Virus record (IMG/VR): IMGVR_UViG_3300031974_000461 | Location: 1-24,690 of that record | Direction: 5' to 3' (one strand) | Length of the DNA stretch: 24,690 bases | Origin: a virus | Part shown: positions 2,400 to 9,160 of the stretch, piece by piece | How the letters are laid out: every line of letters begins with the position of its first letter | How positions within the stretch are numbered: the stretch's first letter is position 1 | Program-made: the position numbers and the translations under genes | Notes under the pieces: generated by a model | What the model saw: only the letters and a program-made list of their open reading frames with translations | Databases searched by the model: none | What the model was told of the DNA's origin: nothing

Positions 2400-4120
2400 T
2401 AAGATTTGAGAAACTCCGTTGGAAGAATTTTCTTTCAACTGGTAACTACTTCAACGAAATTAACTTTCTAGAGACTCCCACAAACCTTGTTGTGGGCGAG
2501 AACGGTGCAGGTAAGTCTACAATGCTTGATGCACTATCGTTTTCTCTCTTTGGTAAAGCACATCGTAACATTAACAAACCTCAACTAGTTAACACTATTA
2601 ATAACAAAGACTGTTTGTGTGAAGTGGAGTTCACTGTTAATAGTGTAAATTATAAAATCGTGCGTGGTTTGAAACCCGCAAAGTTCGAGATCTGGAAAGA
2701 CGGCACTATGATCAACCAGAGCTCCCACGCACGTGAGTATCAAGAGATTCTTGAAAAGAACGTCTTACAGATGTCTCACAAGAGTTTCCACCAAATTGTT
2801 GTTCTCGGTTCGTCCTCTTTTATCCCGTTCATGCAACTCAACTCAACCTCTCGGCGTGACGTGATAGAAGATCTTCTTGACATCAACATCTTTTCAAAGA
2901 TGAATGTGATTCTCAAGGAGAAAGTCTCTCTCCTCAAAGGCGAGCTAGAGAACAACAACCATTCTATTGAGATGGTCAAGACTCGTATTTCCTCTCAGAA
3001 GAAGTACATCCGAGACCTCAGTGCAATCAATACTGCACACCGAAAAGAGAAAGAGGCAGAGATAAAAAGTCTCAATGACGACATCACTACCTTTAATGAA
3101 GCAAACGCTGAGTTATCAGAAGTTGTCAACAACTCTCTGCCATCTGTCCAGAAAGAACTAGACAAGATTCGTGGCAACAAACAGAAACTAGAAAAGTATC
3201 GTACACAGTTTGATACACAAGTTAAGTCTGTTGTAAAAGAAGCGAAGTTCTTTGATCAACATGACAACTGTCCTACGTGCGAACAAGAGATTGGTGATGA
3301 GTTAAGATCAACTAAGAAATCTTCTGCGAATGAACGTGCACGAGAGTTGCAAAAGTTGATGCAAGAAGCAGATACACAACTAGAAGATTACAATAACATG
3401 TTGTCCAGTCTTGAGTCTGAGATGTCTGACTTGTTGCACAAGCAGAACGTAATGAATAACAATATGCAGATGATCTCCAGACTGACTCAGAACATTCAAA
3501 AGATTCAGTCCGATCTTGCTGAGATGTCTGAAAACACCGGTGACATGGCACAAGCGAACGAAGAACTAAATGCGCTTGACGAAGAAATGCATTCCTTGGT
3601 AGATAAGAAATATTCGCTCAACGAGATGTCTTCTTACAACCGAGTCGCATCTGAGTTACTGAAAGACTCTGGTATTAAGACGAAGATAATAAAACAATAT
3701 ATACCTGTCATTAATGAATTGACAAATCAGTACTTGCAGACTCTAGACTTTTTTGTACACTTTGAGTTAGATGAAAATTTCAAAGAGACTATCCGATCTC
3801 GTTATCGCGACACGTTTTCTTATGATTCTTTCTCAGAGGGTGAGAAACAGCGTATTGACTTATCTCTGCTGTTTACTTGGCGTCATATTGCCAAGATGAA
3901 GAATTCTGTATCGACCAATCTGTTGATACTAGATGAAACGTTTGACTCTTCGTTGGACGGTGAGGGTGTTGACAATCTCATGAAGATTATTGACACATTG
4001 AAAGAAGACACTAATGTCTTTGTGATCTCTCATAAGACTGAGCTAGAAGATGCTCACTTTGAGCGAAAACTGTCGTTTGTAAAAGACAAAAACTTCAGTC
4101 GTATGAGAGAAATCACTTGA
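2396..4120 (+). CDS. 46: gp46, SbcC/Rad50-like recombination endonuclease subunit
   Basis: ATPase subunit of the gp46/gp47 nuclease. Of its 574 residues, 34-42 form the Walker A motif GENGAGKST. A long coiled coil follows and is interrupted by the zinc hook CPTC at about 292-295, where two complexes join. The C-terminal head has the ABC signature FSEGEKQRIDLSLLF and the Walker B/D-loop region LLILDETFDSSLD, then an ISHKTE switch histidine. Length is close to T4 gp46. The start overlaps the gp47 stop by four bases. Its own TGA stop lies inside the -35 hexamer of the gp45 promoter. Confidence 0.96.
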   Translation: MIRFEKLRWKNFLSTGNYFNEINFLETPTNLVVGENGAGKSTMLDALSFSLFGKAHRNINKPQLVNTINNKDCLCEVEFTVNSVNYKIVRGLKPAKFEIWKDGTMINQSSHAREYQEILEKNVLQMSHKSFHQIVVLGSSSFIPFMQLNSTSRRDVIEDLLDINIFSKMNVILKEKVSLLKGELENNNHSIEMVKTRISSQKKYIRDLSAINTAHRKEKEAEIKSLNDDITTFNEANAELSEVVNNSLPSVQKELDKIRGNKQKLEKYRTQFDTQVKSVVKEAKFFDQHDNCPTCEQEIGDELRSTKKSSANERARELQKLMQEADTQLEDYNNMLSSLESEMSDLLHKQNVMNNNMQMISRLTQNIQKIQSDLAEMSENTGDMAQANEELNALDEEMHSLVDKKYSLNEMSSYNRVASELLKDSGIKTKIIKQYIPVINELTNQYLQTLDFFVHFELDENFKETIRSRYRDTFSYDSFSEGEKQRIDLSLLFTWRHIAKMKNSVSTNLLILDETFDSSLDGEGVDNLMKIIDTLKEDTNVFVISHKTELEDAHFERKLSFVKDKNFSRMREIT

Positions 4121-4145
4121 CAGAAGTTCTGAAATATTATATAAT
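4117..4145 (+). promoter_or_regulatory. Consensus sigma70 promoter for gp45
   Basis: Perfect TTGACA (4117-4122) and TATAAT (4140-4145) with a 17-bp spacer, 29 bp before the gp45 ATG. The TGA stop codon of gp46 (4118-4120) is part of the -35 hexamer. Confidence 0.85.
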
Positions 4146-4174: not shown

Positions 4175-4855
4175 ATGGAACTATCTAGTCGTACGGTTGA
4201 GATCTTGCGAAACTTCTCAACTATTAATCCAAACATCGTAGTCAACGGAGGTAATGTCCTTAAGACTATGTCCATCGCTAAGAACATCGTCTCTCGTGCA
4301 GAAGTTGAAGAAAACTTCCCTAGTACGTTTGGCATCTATGATCTCTCTGAGTTCTTGTCCGTTCTTTCTTTGGTTGATAATCCATCTATCACTTTTGACA
4401 AAAGTTACTGCACTGTTTCTGACGGCAGTGGACTATCTTCTGTCAAGTACTTCTACTCTGACCCAGAGATGCTTTCTGCGCCTAAGAAAGACATCATCAT
4501 GCCTGAGTGCGAAGTCAAGTTTGTGTTGACTAATGAAACACTTGCTAAGATCAAGAAAGCATCTGCTGCTCTTGGTTACGACACAATTTCTATTCGTCCT
4601 TCAGGTGCGGGCAGTGTAGAAATCCGAGTTGTTGATGTTGAAGACTCTACATCAAACTCTTTCTCAGTGTTGGTTGAGGGTTCTTTCCCAGAAGACACTG
4701 ATTTCAATTTCATTATGGGCGTTGGTAATATGAAACTGCTTGGTGAAGACTATGATGTTTCTATTTCAACAAAACTCATTTCTCATTTCCGATCGTTAAC
4801 ATCGGACACACAATACTTTATCGCACTTGAAAAGTCATCAATTTACGGAGGATAA
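4175..4855 (+). CDS. 45: gp45, DNA polymerase sliding clamp
   Basis: Trimeric sliding clamp that tethers gp43 to DNA and also activates late transcription through gp55. At 226 residues it is almost the T4 length. The assignment rests on overall similarity (an N-terminal segment with FSTINPNIVVNGGNVLKTMS, the FGIYDLSEFLSVLSL strand, the C-terminal YFIALEKSS) and on its place after gp47/gp46 and before gp44/gp62. GAGGA precedes the ATG at good spacing. It has its own consensus promoter, consistent with the high demand for clamp. In T4, gp45 is directly followed by gp44; here a cargo block lies between them. Confidence 0.93.
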   Translation: MELSSRTVEILRNFSTINPNIVVNGGNVLKTMSIAKNIVSRAEVEENFPSTFGIYDLSEFLSVLSLVDNPSITFDKSYCTVSDGSGLSSVKYFYSDPEMLSAPKKDIIMPECEVKFVLTNETLAKIKKASAALGYDTISIRPSGAGSVEIRVVDVEDSTSNSFSVLVEGSFPEDTDFNFIMGVGNMKLLGEDYDVSISTKLISHFRSLTSDTQYFIALEKSSIYGG

Positions 4856-4856
4856 G

Positions 4857-5078
4857 ATGCCTGAACCTATGTCTCAAGAACAAGCAAGTTTAAATGATCT
4901 TGCAAATCGTGTTGCGCGATCATGTGTCGCAGTCGTTGATACAGTTGTAACACGCGGTGGTTTTAAGGGAGAAGAACTTACTACTATCGGTCAGCTTCGT
5001 GATCAAGCAATTCAAGTAGTTGCTCTTTATGAAGCTGTCGCTAAGGCACACGCAGAAGCATCCGAAGATTCTGAGTAA
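4857..5078 (+). CDS. Small hypothetical protein downstream of the clamp gene
   Basis: A 73-residue protein, probably all helical, with no recognised domain. It begins MPEPMSQEQASLNDLANRVARSC... and ends in an acidic tail. ATG 4857 is one base after the gp45 stop and has a strong GGAGG at 4847-4851, so it is probably co-translated with the clamp. An upstream in-frame ATG at 4827 would overlap gp45 and lacks a comparable ribosome site. A role in clamp function would be a guess from position only. Confidence 0.7.
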   Translation: MPEPMSQEQASLNDLANRVARSCVAVVDTVVTRGGFKGEELTTIGQLRDQAIQVVALYEAVAKAHAEASEDSE

Positions 5079-5084
5079 CTGCTT

Positions 5085-5159
5085 TTGACTCCTTGAGTGA
5101 ATGCACTCAAAAATACGGTAACATTGATCTATATTATTATTTTACATTCAAGGAGTCAA
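5085..5159 (+). promoter_or_regulatory. Candidate RNA switch masking a Shine-Dalgarno before the AOX block
   Basis: The leader of the next gene can fold in two exclusive ways. Long-range stem: 5085-5099 pairs with 5145-5159 over 15 bp with one G-U, including 12 perfect Watson-Crick pairs, and buries the AAGGAG ribosome site of the gene starting at 5165. Local hairpin: TTGAGTG (5093-5099) pairs with CACTCAA (5104-5110) around loop AATG, which would free the ribosome site. The shared segment 5093-5099 makes the two states mutually exclusive. The pairing is read directly from the sequence; the regulatory role is inferred. Confidence 0.5.
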
Positions 5160-5164
5160 TTTTA

Positions 5165-5412
5165 ATGAAACTGTACGATCCCCTCATTGCTAAAGAAACG
5201 TCCATACACGTCGCATTGGGGACCGTGATTAACTACCCTCTTAACATCTTCTACACGTGGCTAGCGGTTGTTAAGTGGGGAGTTACAGATCCATTAGTAT
5301 TGTCTACTATTTTAACAGTAGGAATTTCTTTCGTAGCATTCACGAGAATATATATAGTACGTAGTCTCACAGAAAGGCGCAAAGCCAAGAAGAGAGAATA
5401 CATTGACAATAT

Positions 5413-5422
<10 letters not shown>
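5165..5422 (+). CDS. Small two-helix membrane protein
   Basis: An 85-residue protein with two hydrophobic segments (about residues 15-36 and 43-62) followed by a very basic tail containing ERRKAKKRE, so both ends probably face the cytoplasm. Small membrane proteins with this layout occur in many T4-like marine phages, and function is unknown. ATG 5165 follows an AAGGAG that can be hidden in the stem at 5085-5159. The stop codon lies inside the acceptor/D-arm region of the downstream tRNA gene, so the last codons (MPL-stop) are shared with the tRNA. The AOX gene follows 15 bp after that tRNA. Confidence 0.7.
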
Positions 5423-5488
<66 letters not shown>

Positions 5489-5503: not shown

Positions 5504-6097
5504 GTGAATATTACTACGAAAATCTCAAACTGGTTTGCAAAATCAATGACCTCTTTCTTCAGGTTCTTTGCAGACACATTTTTCAAAAACAACTACGGCA
5601 AACGTGCTCTTATCTTAGAGACTGTTGCTGGTGTCCCTGGTATGGTGGGTGGTATGCTCACTCACTTGTACAGTCTGCGTAAAATGCAGAAGGGTAACGG
5701 CACAAAGATCCAAGAGTTGTTAGACGAAGCGACGAATGAACGAAAGCACTTGATGTTCTTTATGGAGATCACGCACCCTTCTCTTTTTGAGAGAATTCTT
5801 GTAGTAGTTGTCCAGTTAATCTTCTGGCACTACTATCTTGTCATGTACATACTCTTCCCGCGTACGGCGCATCGTATGACTGGATACTTTGAGGAAGAGG
5901 CGGTACAGAGTTATACTAACTATTTGGCGTTAATTGAGTCAGGAGAGATTGAGAACGTTCCTGCTCCACAAATTGCTATAGACTATTACATAGATCTTGA
6001 TGAAGGTGCAATGCTTTCTGATATGATCGTGTGTGTTCGTCGTGATGAAATGCATCATGCAAAAGTCAATCACTACTATGCGGACAATCATTCATAG
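5504..6097 (+). CDS. aox: Alternative oxidase (AOX), di-iron ubiquinol oxidase
   Basis: A 197-residue cyanide-resistant terminal oxidase, a monotopic membrane protein that passes electrons from ubiquinol to oxygen without pumping protons. All diagnostic di-iron motifs are present: LET (E39) in LETVAGVPGMVGGMLTHL, NERKHL (E79, H82), FEEEA (129-133) in YFEEEAVQSYT, and RRDEMHH (E182, H185). NVPAPQIAIDYY is also typical. These features match the mitochondrial/proteobacterial AOX branch rather than the plastoquinol oxidases of cyanophages. Length is slightly short but the catalytic four-helix bundle looks complete. Start GTG 5504 is chosen because GGAG (5495-5498) sits 5 bases upstream; a GTG at 5477 would lie within the tRNA. 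It is inserted between the clamp and clamp-loader genes. Confidence 0.93.
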   Translation: MNITTKISNWFAKSMTSFFRFFADTFFKNNYGKRALILETVAGVPGMVGGMLTHLYSLRKMQKGNGTKIQELLDEATNERKHLMFFMEITHPSLFERILVVVVQLIFWHYYLVMYILFPRTAHRMTGYFEEEAVQSYTNYLALIESGEIENVPAPQIAIDYYIDLDEGAMLSDMIVCVRRDEMHHAKVNHYYADNHS

Positions 6098-6202: not shown

Positions 6203-6238
6203 ATGCCGTATTGACTACTATTATATTATGAGGTTTGA

Positions 6239-7183
6239 ATGAGCAATGAATTTCTTTGGGTTGAAAAATATCGTCCACGTAAAGTCTCTGAGACGATTCT
6301 ACAAAAAGAACTAAAGACTACTTTTCAAAACATCGTAGATGGTGGAGAGATCCCCAACATGATGTTTACTGGTACTGCGGGTACTGGTAAGACCACAGTT
6401 GCGAGAGCAATCTGTGAAGAACTAGATCTAGACTACATCGTAATCAACGGATCTGAAGAAGGCAACATTGATACACTACGAGGAAAGATCAAGCAGTTCG
6501 CCTCTTCAGTTTCGTTGTCCGGTGGGTACAAAGTCGTCATTCTAGACGAAGCAGACTATCTTAATCCACAATCAACGCAACCGGCACTGCGTGGGTTCAT
6601 AGAAGAATTCTCAAACAATTGTCGTTTCATTATGACATGTAACTTTGAGAACCGAATCATTGAACCGTTACACTCTCGGTGCACAAAGGTCGCGTTCAAT
6701 ACGAATAAGAAAAGTCTACAGTCTCTCTCTGCAGAGTTTATGGCACGTGCGATGAATATTCTGCAGAATGAAGGTGTTGAGTACCATAAAGACATGTTGG
6801 CGCAAGTCATCATGAAGTACGCTCCGGACTGGCGACGTGTTTTAAATGAACTGCAGAGGGGATCCATCTCTGGTACTCTGAGTACGATTCCATCAAGTGA
6901 TGAGTCTGTTCTAGATCCTTACAGTCAATTGTTCACTGCAATTCGTGATAAAAACTTCAAGAAAATGAGATCGTGGGTTGTCAATAATATTGACGTTGAA
7001 CCCGCGTCAGTGTTTCGTGGTCTTTATGATCGGATGTATGATCATGTAAACCCAAACAGTATTCCGCAACTCGTATTAATTCTTGCGGACTACCAATATA
7101 AAAATGCGTTTGTGGCTGACCACGAACTTAACTTGGTCGCCTGCCTCACTGAGGTCATGGCAAACGTAGAGATTAAAGCGTGA
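6239..7183 (+). CDS. 44: gp44, clamp loader ATPase large subunit
   Basis: AAA+ ATPase that, as a tetramer with one gp62, opens and loads the gp45 clamp. The 314 residues show Walker A GTAGTGKTT (45-53), Walker B ILDEADYL (D103-D106) and the arginine-finger motif SRC (146-148). The N-terminus FLWVEKYRP is the classic clamp-loader opening. Length is near T4 gp44 (319). The TGA stop overlaps a GTG start for the following sulfotransferase-like gene, so that unrelated-looking gene is translationally coupled to the clamp loader. Confidence 0.96.
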   Translation: MSNEFLWVEKYRPRKVSETILQKELKTTFQNIVDGGEIPNMMFTGTAGTGKTTVARAICEELDLDYIVINGSEEGNIDTLRGKIKQFASSVSLSGGYKVVILDEADYLNPQSTQPALRGFIEEFSNNCRFIMTCNFENRIIEPLHSRCTKVAFNTNKKSLQSLSAEFMARAMNILQNEGVEYHKDMLAQVIMKYAPDWRRVLNELQRGSISGTLSTIPSSDESVLDPYSQLFTAIRDKNFKKMRSWVVNNIDVEPASVFRGLYDRMYDHVNPNSIPQLVLILADYQYKNAFVADHELNLVACLTEVMANVEIKA

Positions 7184-7839
7184 TTAATAGCACCAAATAT
7201 TATGAGATGTCTCCTGCAGACAACGTACTGTACTTTCCAAACAATATTGATGTAAGACTCTGCCCTAAGAACGGCATGTCTTCGTTAAAAGAGTTGCACA
7301 GATTGAATCGTGGAGTTGATGAGTACATTGGTCGTATTGACCGAATCAGAAAGGTAAGAGAACAGGGTGATCAGTTTGACATCCCGTTTCGCAAAGGTAG
7401 TTATCGCATCGCAGTAAGACGCGACCCTATTGTAAGATTTCGTTCTGCGTGTGAGTATATCGTCGCAAATCAAGCTGAGTATATTAAACAAGGTAGAATT
7501 GATGAGCTGCCTTCAATGGACGAAGAACTTGATGTAGTTCTAGATAAGATTGAAGCAGGCACACTGAAGAACAACCACTTCTATACGCAGTCTTGGTATA
7601 TGGGTAAACCCGAAGACTATGATATGGTAGTGTATATTGACGAACTGTCGCGACTTATGGTATTTTTAAACGATGCGGCAGATCTGGGATTTGACGAAGA
7701 AACGTTAAATATTCACGATAACAAATCTCAATTGAAAGTATACAATAGCATTCTAACAGACCGTCAACGTCAAAGAATTAAGACATTGTATCGTAAAGAT
7801 TATGATAATGGGTGGTGTAAAATTGAAGACAGAACTTAG
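7180..7839 (+). CDS. Sulfotransferase-like protein (PAPS-dependent family)
   Basis: A 219-residue protein resembling the Sulfotransfer_2 type of carbohydrate sulfotransferases. The putative 5'-phosphosulfate loop is CPKNGMSSLK (residues 28-37, compare PKxGxTSLK). The putative 3'-phosphate motif is RDPIVRFRSA (81-90), with the expected Arg and Ser eight positions apart. An YTQSWYMG segment and VYIDELSRLMVFL follow, as in the family. The target cannot be told; a host or phage surface glycan is the usual guess. The GTG start (7180) overlaps the gp44 stop; an ATG at 7207 is possible but would remove little. It sits between gp44 and gp62, which are adjacent in T4, so it is an insertion into the clamp-loader operon. 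It also overlaps the gp62 start region. Confidence 0.65.
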   Translation: MINSTKYYEMSPADNVLYFPNNIDVRLCPKNGMSSLKELHRLNRGVDEYIGRIDRIRKVREQGDQFDIPFRKGSYRIAVRRDPIVRFRSACEYIVANQAEYIKQGRIDELPSMDEELDVVLDKIEAGTLKNNHFYTQSWYMGKPEDYDMVVYIDELSRLMVFLNDAADLGFDEETLNIHDNKSQLKVYNSILTDRQRQRIKTLYRKDYDNGWCKIEDRT

Positions 7840-8215: not shown

Positions 8216-8612
8216 TCTAGTCCAGTGGAACTCCGACATGATGTTAGAAATCACGTTGGCAGAACCAGATGACTTTTTAAAAGTCAGAGAAACCCTAACA
8301 CGAATAGGTGTTGCTTCACGTCGCGACAACACTCTATTCCAATCGTGTCATATCTTGCATAAGCAGGGTAGATACTTTATCGTACATTTTAAAGAGCTGT
8401 TCTTGTTGGACGGCAAGAAATCAAATCTAGAAGTTTCAGACATGGAACGTCGTAACACGATCGCAACCCTATTACAGGATTGGGGTCTTGTGTCAATCGT
8501 AAATAAAGATGTCGCACGTGACTGTGCGCCAATGAGACAGATCAAGATCATCTCATACAAAGACAAGTCCAATTGGAACTTGCAGCCAAAGTATAACATT
8601 GGGAATAACTAA
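8202..8612 (+). CDS. regA: RegA translational repressor
   Basis: RNA-binding repressor that blocks ribosome access on many early mRNAs, including clamp and clamp-loader messages in T4. Strong match: EITLAEPDDFLKVRETLTR, then FQSCHILHKQGRYFIVHFKE, LLQDWGLV and a C-terminal PKYNIGN, as in T4 RegA. With the GTG at 8202 (AAGGAAAAGG upstream) it is 136 residues and has about 12 extra residues compared with T4. ATG 8238 or 8241 would give the T4-like N-terminus but has a weak ribosome site. It overlaps gp62 by 14 bases. Order gp44, gp62, regA, gp43 is conserved apart from insertions. Confidence 0.94.
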   Translation: MEENNLVQWNSDMMLEITLAEPDDFLKVRETLTRIGVASRRDNTLFQSCHILHKQGRYFIVHFKELFLLDGKKSNLEVSDMERRNTIATLLQDWGLVSIVNKDVARDCAPMRQIKIISYKDKSNWNLQPKYNIGNN

Positions 8613-9160
8613 TGGCTACTGAACATTATGGAATTTTTGATGGTAGAGAGGACAACATTGGAACTAAGACTCCTTTCGTAGGTGAACTCCCATTTAATAT
8701 GGAAGAGACTTACAATTGGGTTCAGTTCATGAATATGATGGACTCTCATCCAGACGAATTATATGATCGTAACTCTGATAAGATGCGTATAGGTCTTAAC
8801 AAGTTTCATACTCGCGGTAGTTCTCCGGAGTTTGCTAAAAACATTTACGCTGAGTTAGAAGATGTATTTTCTCTTCACTCAGATAAAAGAAATATAACAA
8901 ATATTGCATTTAGCGGATTTGGTCGTGATAGCGGTTCTTATCCATGGCATAAAGACTCCATGGATGTATTTTTAGTACAAGTTATTAGTACTGTCGGTCT
9001 CAAAGTAGAAGGCATCAATAACGAAGAACCGTTTGACTTTAAACCAGGGATGTACGTTTATTTGCCAAGGGGCACTCATCATCAGGTGTTCCCTAAAATC
9101 TCACGAGTATCATTCTCGTTTGGTATTGAAGGAGACCCAGACCCGTCTATGTACTACTAA
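8612..9160 (+). CDS. JmjC/cupin-like 2-oxoglutarate Fe(II) oxygenase
   Basis: A 182-residue protein with a cupin core resembling JmjC or ribosomal-oxygenase enzymes. The likely metal site is H113 and D115 in YPWHKDSMDVF plus a distal histidine in LPRGTHHQVF (156/157). The MYVYLPRGTHH stretch is characteristic of this fold. Such enzymes hydroxylate protein or nucleic-acid substrates using 2-oxoglutarate and oxygen; the substrate here is unknown. The ATG overlaps the regA stop (TAATG), so it belongs to the clamp-loader/regA operon. A non-catalytic cupin is possible, but the three putative ligands are intact. Confidence 0.6.
   Translation: MATEHYGIFDGREDNIGTKTPFVGELPFNMEETYNWVQFMNMMDSHPDELYDRNSDKMRIGLNKFHTRGSSPEFAKNIYAELEDVFSLHSDKRNITNIAFSGFGRDSGSYPWHKDSMDVFLVQVISTVGLKVEGINNEEPFDFKPGMYVYLPRGTHHQVFPKISRVSFSFGIEGDPDPSMYY

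Follow-up and report, generated by a model that had tools for sequence, protein, structure and literature searches.

The leader hairpins of the T4 genes e, soc, 49 and I-TevI have a nested late promoter and a hidden Shine–Dalgarno (SD) sequence as their defining features in the portion of PMC3014915 cited here. The element described below is like them in being a long hairpin of a T4-like phage, placed between a transcription unit and the next gene, and in having an AT-rich, −10-like motif near its 3′ arm. Unlike them, it has no TATAAATA late promoter (the late promoter motif of this phage group, as derived here), its stem does not generally contain the SD, and it often carries a T-run and is tied to the end of the upstream gene. 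Intrinsic (Rho-independent) terminators share with it a stable stem followed by a T-run (36 of 58 elements) right after a stop codon, but the loop of the element is 27–62 nt, whereas other hairpins of Phage C48C1 have short TTCG-type loops; the T-run is also missing from most of one clade (CGGTC), and there is a competing 5′ hairpin. With the ribosome-mediated attenuators of trp and his it has in common three segments, two mutually exclusive hairpins and a geometry on which a ribosome at a stop codon could act, but the gene before it is an ordinary conserved ORF and not a leader peptide bearing control codons, and the predicted effect of a ribosome is partial. The T4 split ribosome-binding sites (genes 25 and 38) resemble it as structures of T4-like phages that lie close upstream of a start codon. 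A split site was rejected here, as the sequences inspected have no SD-like sequence upstream of the 5′ arm that could be brought near. In the literature searched, which is not all of print, no description of the element was found, nor any paper that mentions C48C1 together with phage.

The window is the whole stretch of DNA that was analysed, a 24,690-base IMG/VR virus fragment from a T4-like phage, and all coordinates refer to it unless stated otherwise. Among named records, Phage C48C1 is the closest (75.9% identity across 95% of 3 kb). The gene order is gp45, orf73, the hairpin element, a membrane-protein ORF, tRNA-Thr, alternative oxidase (AOX) and gp44. A sigma70-type promoter (TTGACA-17-TATAAT, 4117–4145, + strand), matching the consensus at 12 of 12 positions, lies before gp45 and is presumed to be the source of the transcript bearing the element; TTGACA/TATAATG is retained in most of the gp45 leaders compared among relatives. 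The gp45 sliding clamp gene (4175–4855, + strand; Pfam gp45-slide_C, E 1.4e-13) is followed by orf73 (4857–5078, + strand), which encodes a conserved small protein of 73 residues, 76–90% identical between the window and its relatives in an alignment of 11 sequences, and its stop codon (5076–5078) precedes the element. The accessory block opens with the gene for a small membrane protein (5165–5422, + strand) that has relatives in IMG/VR and a weak match to DUF3021, under the Pfam cut-off. Next are tRNA-Thr(UGU) (5413–5488, + strand), overlapping the end of the membrane-protein ORF, the AOX gene (5507–6097, + strand; Pfam AOX, E 5.9e-69) and gp44 (6239–7183). The segment shared by the tRNA 5′ end and the membrane-protein ORF (5413–5422) is the final ten bases of the latter.

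The 5′ arm of the element (A; TTGACTCCTTGAGTG, 5085–5099, + strand) begins at +7 after the orf73 stop and pairs with the 3′ arm (C; CATTCAAGGAGTCAA, 5145–5159, + strand) to form a stem of 15 pairs with a loop of 45 nt. One pair is G-U (5097–5147), and 12 Watson–Crick pairs are uninterrupted (5085–5096 with 5148–5159). Alternatively, the 3′ half of A can pair with a segment B (5104–5110, + strand) in a short hairpin of 7 bp (5093–5110, + strand; 5093–5099 with 5104–5110). The preliminary description of this DNA had given both folds, the long stem with its single G-U and 12 perfect pairs and the competing 7-bp hairpin, and the letters and pairings are as it reported. The computed energies are about −20.6 kcal/mol for the long fold and −8.0 kcal/mol for the short hairpin. 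The SD for the membrane protein, AAGGAG (5150–5155, + strand), lies within arm C at a distance of nine bases from its ATG (5165). The stem is followed by a T-run (5160–5163, + strand) of 4 bases that is usually longer in relatives. Within the loop, TATATTAT (5130–5137, + strand) carries the conserved motif TATWAT, which may be a −10-like sequence or one that binds a protein. In most relatives the orf73 stop and arm A are separated by a pyrimidine-rich segment (5079–5084 in the window) whose last bases are a T-run; this segment is unable to pair with the T-run after C.

Taken alone, the window fold is not significant against shuffled sequence (z −1.08; 29 of 200 shuffles fold equally well). A scan for long-loop inverted repeats scoring at least 29 found four in the C48C1 genome and four in the window, and five and seven in two Markov controls of C48C1 genome size. 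The element is the top long-loop repeat in both the C48C1 genome and the window (34.5). It had been argued that a chance repeat of this kind, placed on an SD, was improbable; since shuffles can fold equally well and the Markov controls contain such repeats at a similar rate, this argument is unsound by itself.

Relatives were collected by IMG/VR searches with proteins of the accessory block (73 and 80 loci) and with the small ORF (80 of at least 574 relatives), plus three genome contigs, so that the small-ORF matches are sampled in part, and the clades are unevenly represented. Of the 73 loci from the first block search, 63 were used for reading the region, ten near-duplicate or partial loci being excluded. 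Starting at the small-ORF stop codon, 69 distinct stretches were read, those shorter than 125 nt being skipped; the element is present in 58 and absent by the score cut-off in 11, one of which (L054) has an interrupted stem yet is matched by covariance model R1. Two alignments together hold 52 of the 58 elements, with the near-duplicates L006, L014, L110, L170, L172 and L180 omitted: A2, a MAFFT alignment of 32 sequences, and A3, 20 sequences of the CGGTC clade. Three A2 rows, two of them one column off (L049 and L023) and one bulged (L123), were retained in the covariation count and removed for one of two mismatch counts, leaving 29 rows. Two covariance models, R1 and R2, were derived from the alignments, one per clade set, and each finds members of the other set. 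R1 has a single match in the whole C48C1 record and a single match in the window, and the idea of several element copies per genome was rejected on these counts.

In sequence the arms are of quite dissimilar types (GACTCC, GGGTTCG, GGGGCGG, CGGTC and a further six), yet their complementarity holds. In A2, 95.5% of A:C cells are paired, a count of related sequences and not of evolutionary events, and 10 of the 11 pairs have changed on both sides. The A2 covariation score is 0.698; shuffles give 0.262, and slid registers no more than 0.214. RNAalifold, unaided, gave the identical 11 A:C pairs. In A3, 98.7% of A:C cells are paired, again counting related sequences, two-sided changes occur in 9 of 15 pairs, and the score was reached by none of 500 shuffles. 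Covariation in related phages had been proposed as a check on the fold, and comparison with relatives confirms, at the level of sequence, that the A:C stem is a real, conserved RNA structure. Stems are 10–17 bp and loops 27–62 nt across the 58 elements, and the folded energies range from −16.6 to −30.9 kcal/mol with widely varying stem composition. The modelled basal A:C pairing exceeds 0.5 in all 58, giving the stable hairpin expected of an intrinsic terminator, and equilibrium folding without outside help prefers the long stem in 57 of 58.

Template-switching correction during replication can imitate covariation, and the arms might have been matched in this way as an inverted DNA repeat (a cruciform, or a replication or protein site) with no RNA function. 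Matching at the DNA level would not favour G-U pairs. Among mismatch cells of A:C, however, G-U exceeds A-C by 24 to 0 in the 29 rows of A2 and by 15 to 3 in A3 (31 to 7 when the three removed rows, the source of the A-C cells, are counted in A2 as well, making 32), which indicates that selection acts on the + strand RNA. The arms also differ so widely between clades that they hold no shared protein site, and we regard the DNA-level explanation as highly improbable.

The short hairpin is predicted in most RNA prefixes that end before C, and the loop it closes is mostly 4–16 nt in the predicted folds. In A2, 71.9% of A:B cells are paired, 20 cells show two-sided changes compared with 7.3 in shuffles, and the score of 0.310, against 0.191, was reached by none of 500 shuffles and is maximal at the true register. 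In the CGGTC alignment (A3) 91.6% of A:B cells are paired, but there is no covariation beyond shuffles. A loop-shuffle test gave p < 0.05 for A:B in 8 of 26 representatives (combined p 1.6e-7, from values that are not independent). From this comparison A:B is probably real, and likely represents a folding step.

The position of the element is set by the gene before it. Arm A begins +6 to +14 after the orf73 stop in the 58 elements (mode +7/+8), and the element stays after orf73 where a gene of about 600 bp is interposed before the membrane gene (L049, L054, L056, L060, L122 and L141) and where the membrane gene is absent and tRNA-Thr directly follows the element (L189–L191). This fixed distance from the orf73 stop, whatever gene is next, argues that the element ends the gp45 unit and is not a leader of the membrane gene. 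A tie to AOX was rejected, since 22 AOX loci without orf73 by tblastn (L043, L045 and L063–L082) give no R1 or R2 match. Eight distant relatives (L232–L236 and L240–L242) have no element and no R1 or R2 match. The same is true of L133 and L137, in which orf73 is followed by different sequence and the membrane gene is directly preceded by a short GC hairpin with a T-run.

The preliminary description had proposed that the two folds control a ribosome site. Two competing folds do exist, with strong evidence for A:C and moderate evidence for A:B, and AAGGAG does lie inside arm C in the window, but a switch of the membrane-gene ribosome site does not hold for the family: an SD-like sequence occurs in arm C in only 7 of the 58 elements, all in the window's clade, and the element is kept where the membrane gene is distant or absent. 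SD hiding was therefore rejected as the conserved role; for elements of the window's clade, closing the stem would mask the SD in addition. An SD or start codon within the helix, as in the T4 e type, is thus a property of the window and not of the family. Arm C ends about 5–12 nt from the start codon in many relatives, so it is conceivable that A:C hides the start region of the membrane-protein gene and A:B frees it, as an occluder or translational switch with no ligand. Given how few elements have an SD-like sequence in C, and given that the element persists where the next gene has its own, farther site (L049, L060 and L141) or a tRNA follows, this explanation appears quite unlikely.

A riboswitch or thermosensor had also been suggested. 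Two competing folds in one transcript would suit either, and marine T4-like phages do have riboswitches, but those in the cited portion of PMC9004378 are of a known class. There is no conserved domain of a size to bind a ligand, as the A:B loop is mostly 4–16 nt, and no Rfam match reaches the gathering score: over the window Rfam detects tRNAs only, and the weak best matches over the element are far below the cut-offs. The absence of a recognised RNA class, as first noted, therefore stands. The varied stem compositions, and energies from −16.6 to −30.9 kcal/mol, argue against a tuned melting point. Both a riboswitch and an RNA thermometer are thus very unlikely.

A T-run was counted where five or more of the 8 bases that follow the stem are T. 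By this definition 36 of the 58 elements have one: 4 of the 23 in the CGGTC clade and 32 of the 35 others. The CGGTC clade keeps the stem in all 23 of its elements, 19 of them without a T-run, and the element of Phage C48C1 is also without one. The loops of 27–62 nt are not the short loops of an intrinsic terminator, so the element is not classed as an ordinary terminator. Elements without a T-run would be accounted for if A:C were a hairpin at a message boundary, protecting the 3′ end of the gp45–orf73 message or serving as a double-strand RNase site that separates off the tRNA/AOX message, with termination secondary. Stems of 10–17 bp, and the elements that have tRNA-Thr next, would fit this role as well. 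It leaves the T-runs of the 32 of 35 other elements and the conserved loop motif unaccounted for, however, and we consider this candidate role unlikely.

Promoters for the accessory block were sought as consensus sigma70 (10 of 12) or TATAAATA sequences between the element and the gp44 promoter in 49 of the 58 blocks, and none was found in 47 of the 49. The block would then need read-through or a promoter of unrecognised type. Phage Melnitz, in the cited portion of PMC9004378, has 46 promoters and no identifiable middle promoters, which calls for caution in reading the present scan. The motif TATWAT is present in 51 of the 58 loops, compared with 18% of shuffled loops, commonly 5–9 nt before C, and could be either a −10 sequence or an RNA motif. 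Given this motif, a transcription start between 5100 and 5145, which the preliminary description had named as counting against its switch, is possible. Transcription from a promoter in the loop would start at the first bases of C. By analogy with T4 e, soc, 49 and I-TevI, the closest precedent (PMC3014915, section 29), read-through transcripts would fold and be blocked, in translation and, where a T-run exists, also in transcription, while transcripts starting at the loop TATWAT would lack arm A and escape. The frequency of the motif and the 47 of 49 blocks with no other consensus promoter speak for such a nested promoter.

Other properties of the loop speak against it. There is no −35 sequence in the loops above the shuffled level (best match 2–4 of 6), although the gp45 and gp44 promoters of these phages do have good −35 sequences, and an ordinary sigma70 promoter in the loop was rejected on this ground. 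A T4 late promoter there was rejected too, as the window's loop does not contain TATAAATA, nor do 48 of 49 spans, the sole hit lying 237 nt downstream. In addition, TATATTATG occurs in gp44 leaders as well, there downstream of the gp44 promoter, so the loop motif need not be a −10 sequence. Overall, a promoter nested in the hairpin is possible but doubtful.

TTGACT hexamers within both arms (9 of 12), considered as a further promoter, are confined to the window's clade (alignment A2). In C48C1, TATWATG occurs 48 times on the + strand, 18 of them within 60 nt before an annotated start, and most of these 18 are the start codon itself. T4 RegA sites are AU-rich and contain AUG, such as AAAUUAUGAUU in gene 44, in the cited portion of PMC3014915. 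In the gp44 leaders (6205–6238 in the window, and relatives) a TTTACA/TATAAT promoter is followed, right at the approach to the start codon, by a conserved TATATTATG(G)AG or something close to it; this is a candidate RegA operator by its sequence.

The reading that we favour, while rating it a little below an even chance, is that the element is a cis-acting, terminator-like attenuator at the end of the gp45–orf73 unit, controlling how much transcription continues into the accessory block of membrane protein, tRNA-Thr and alternative oxidase. Comparison among relatives finds A:C in the + strand RNA at one position after orf73, with T-runs in 36 of 58 and, behind it, accessory blocks that mostly have no consensus promoter; from this we infer termination, an effect of the ribosome and a biological purpose. 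The T-runs, the lack of consensus promoters and the short hairpin with its T-run in L133 and L137 are what favour a terminator-like attenuator. As RNA polymerase advances, arm A would first pair with B in the short hairpin, and once C emerges, A would leave B for C and so build the longer stem. For most clades, A:C and the T-run would then form an intrinsic terminator, unusual in its long loop, at which most transcripts would stop while a fraction reads through. Because A starts only 6–14 nt past the orf73 stop, a ribosome finishing orf73 would sit over the foot of the stem and so promote read-through, making the attenuator coupled to orf73 translation.

A ribosome at a stop codon covers about 10 nt beyond it. 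With such a cover modelled, the pairs next to the T-run are lost in 43 of the 58 elements, so that the number keeping them falls from 58 to 15. A shift of A to B follows in 8 of 58 elements with 10 nt covered and in 15 of 58 with 12 nt, and a full, ribosome-driven swap to A:B was rejected as a general mechanism because only the former 8 make it at 10 nt. Several observations count against an attenuator: the CGGTC clade and C48C1 without a T-run, the T-run of 4 bases in the window, the long loops, and A:B covariation that is missing in the CGGTC alignment and individually significant in 8 of 26 representatives. A broader proposal, fairly unlikely as a whole, is that the elements are a phage RNA family not described before. 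In this proposal they would be kinetic attenuators of three segments, placed at the stop of the gp45 operon, by which translation of the clamp operon, perhaps with an RNA-binding phage protein such as RegA on the loop sequence UAUWAUG, is linked to expression of the respiratory accessory genes and the tRNA among them.

Accessory metabolic genes of marine phages are usually catalogued by presence, and their switching is mostly uncharted. A strongly covarying RNA without an Rfam match, located between a core replication gene and a promoterless-looking respiratory oxidase block, makes such control directly testable. For studies of termination, the diverged long-loop hairpins of this family, some followed by a T-run and some not, are a ready natural collection.

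Two further observations concern the neighbouring genes. After gp44, the window has weak matches to a sulfotransferase and a JmjC-type oxygenase (7180–7839 and 8612–9160). The membrane-protein gene, though conserved, is unannotated in Phage C48C1 (L002 3979–4212, corresponding to OQ984149.1 25909–26142), where the annotation instead shows two short minus-strand 'hypothetical proteins'.
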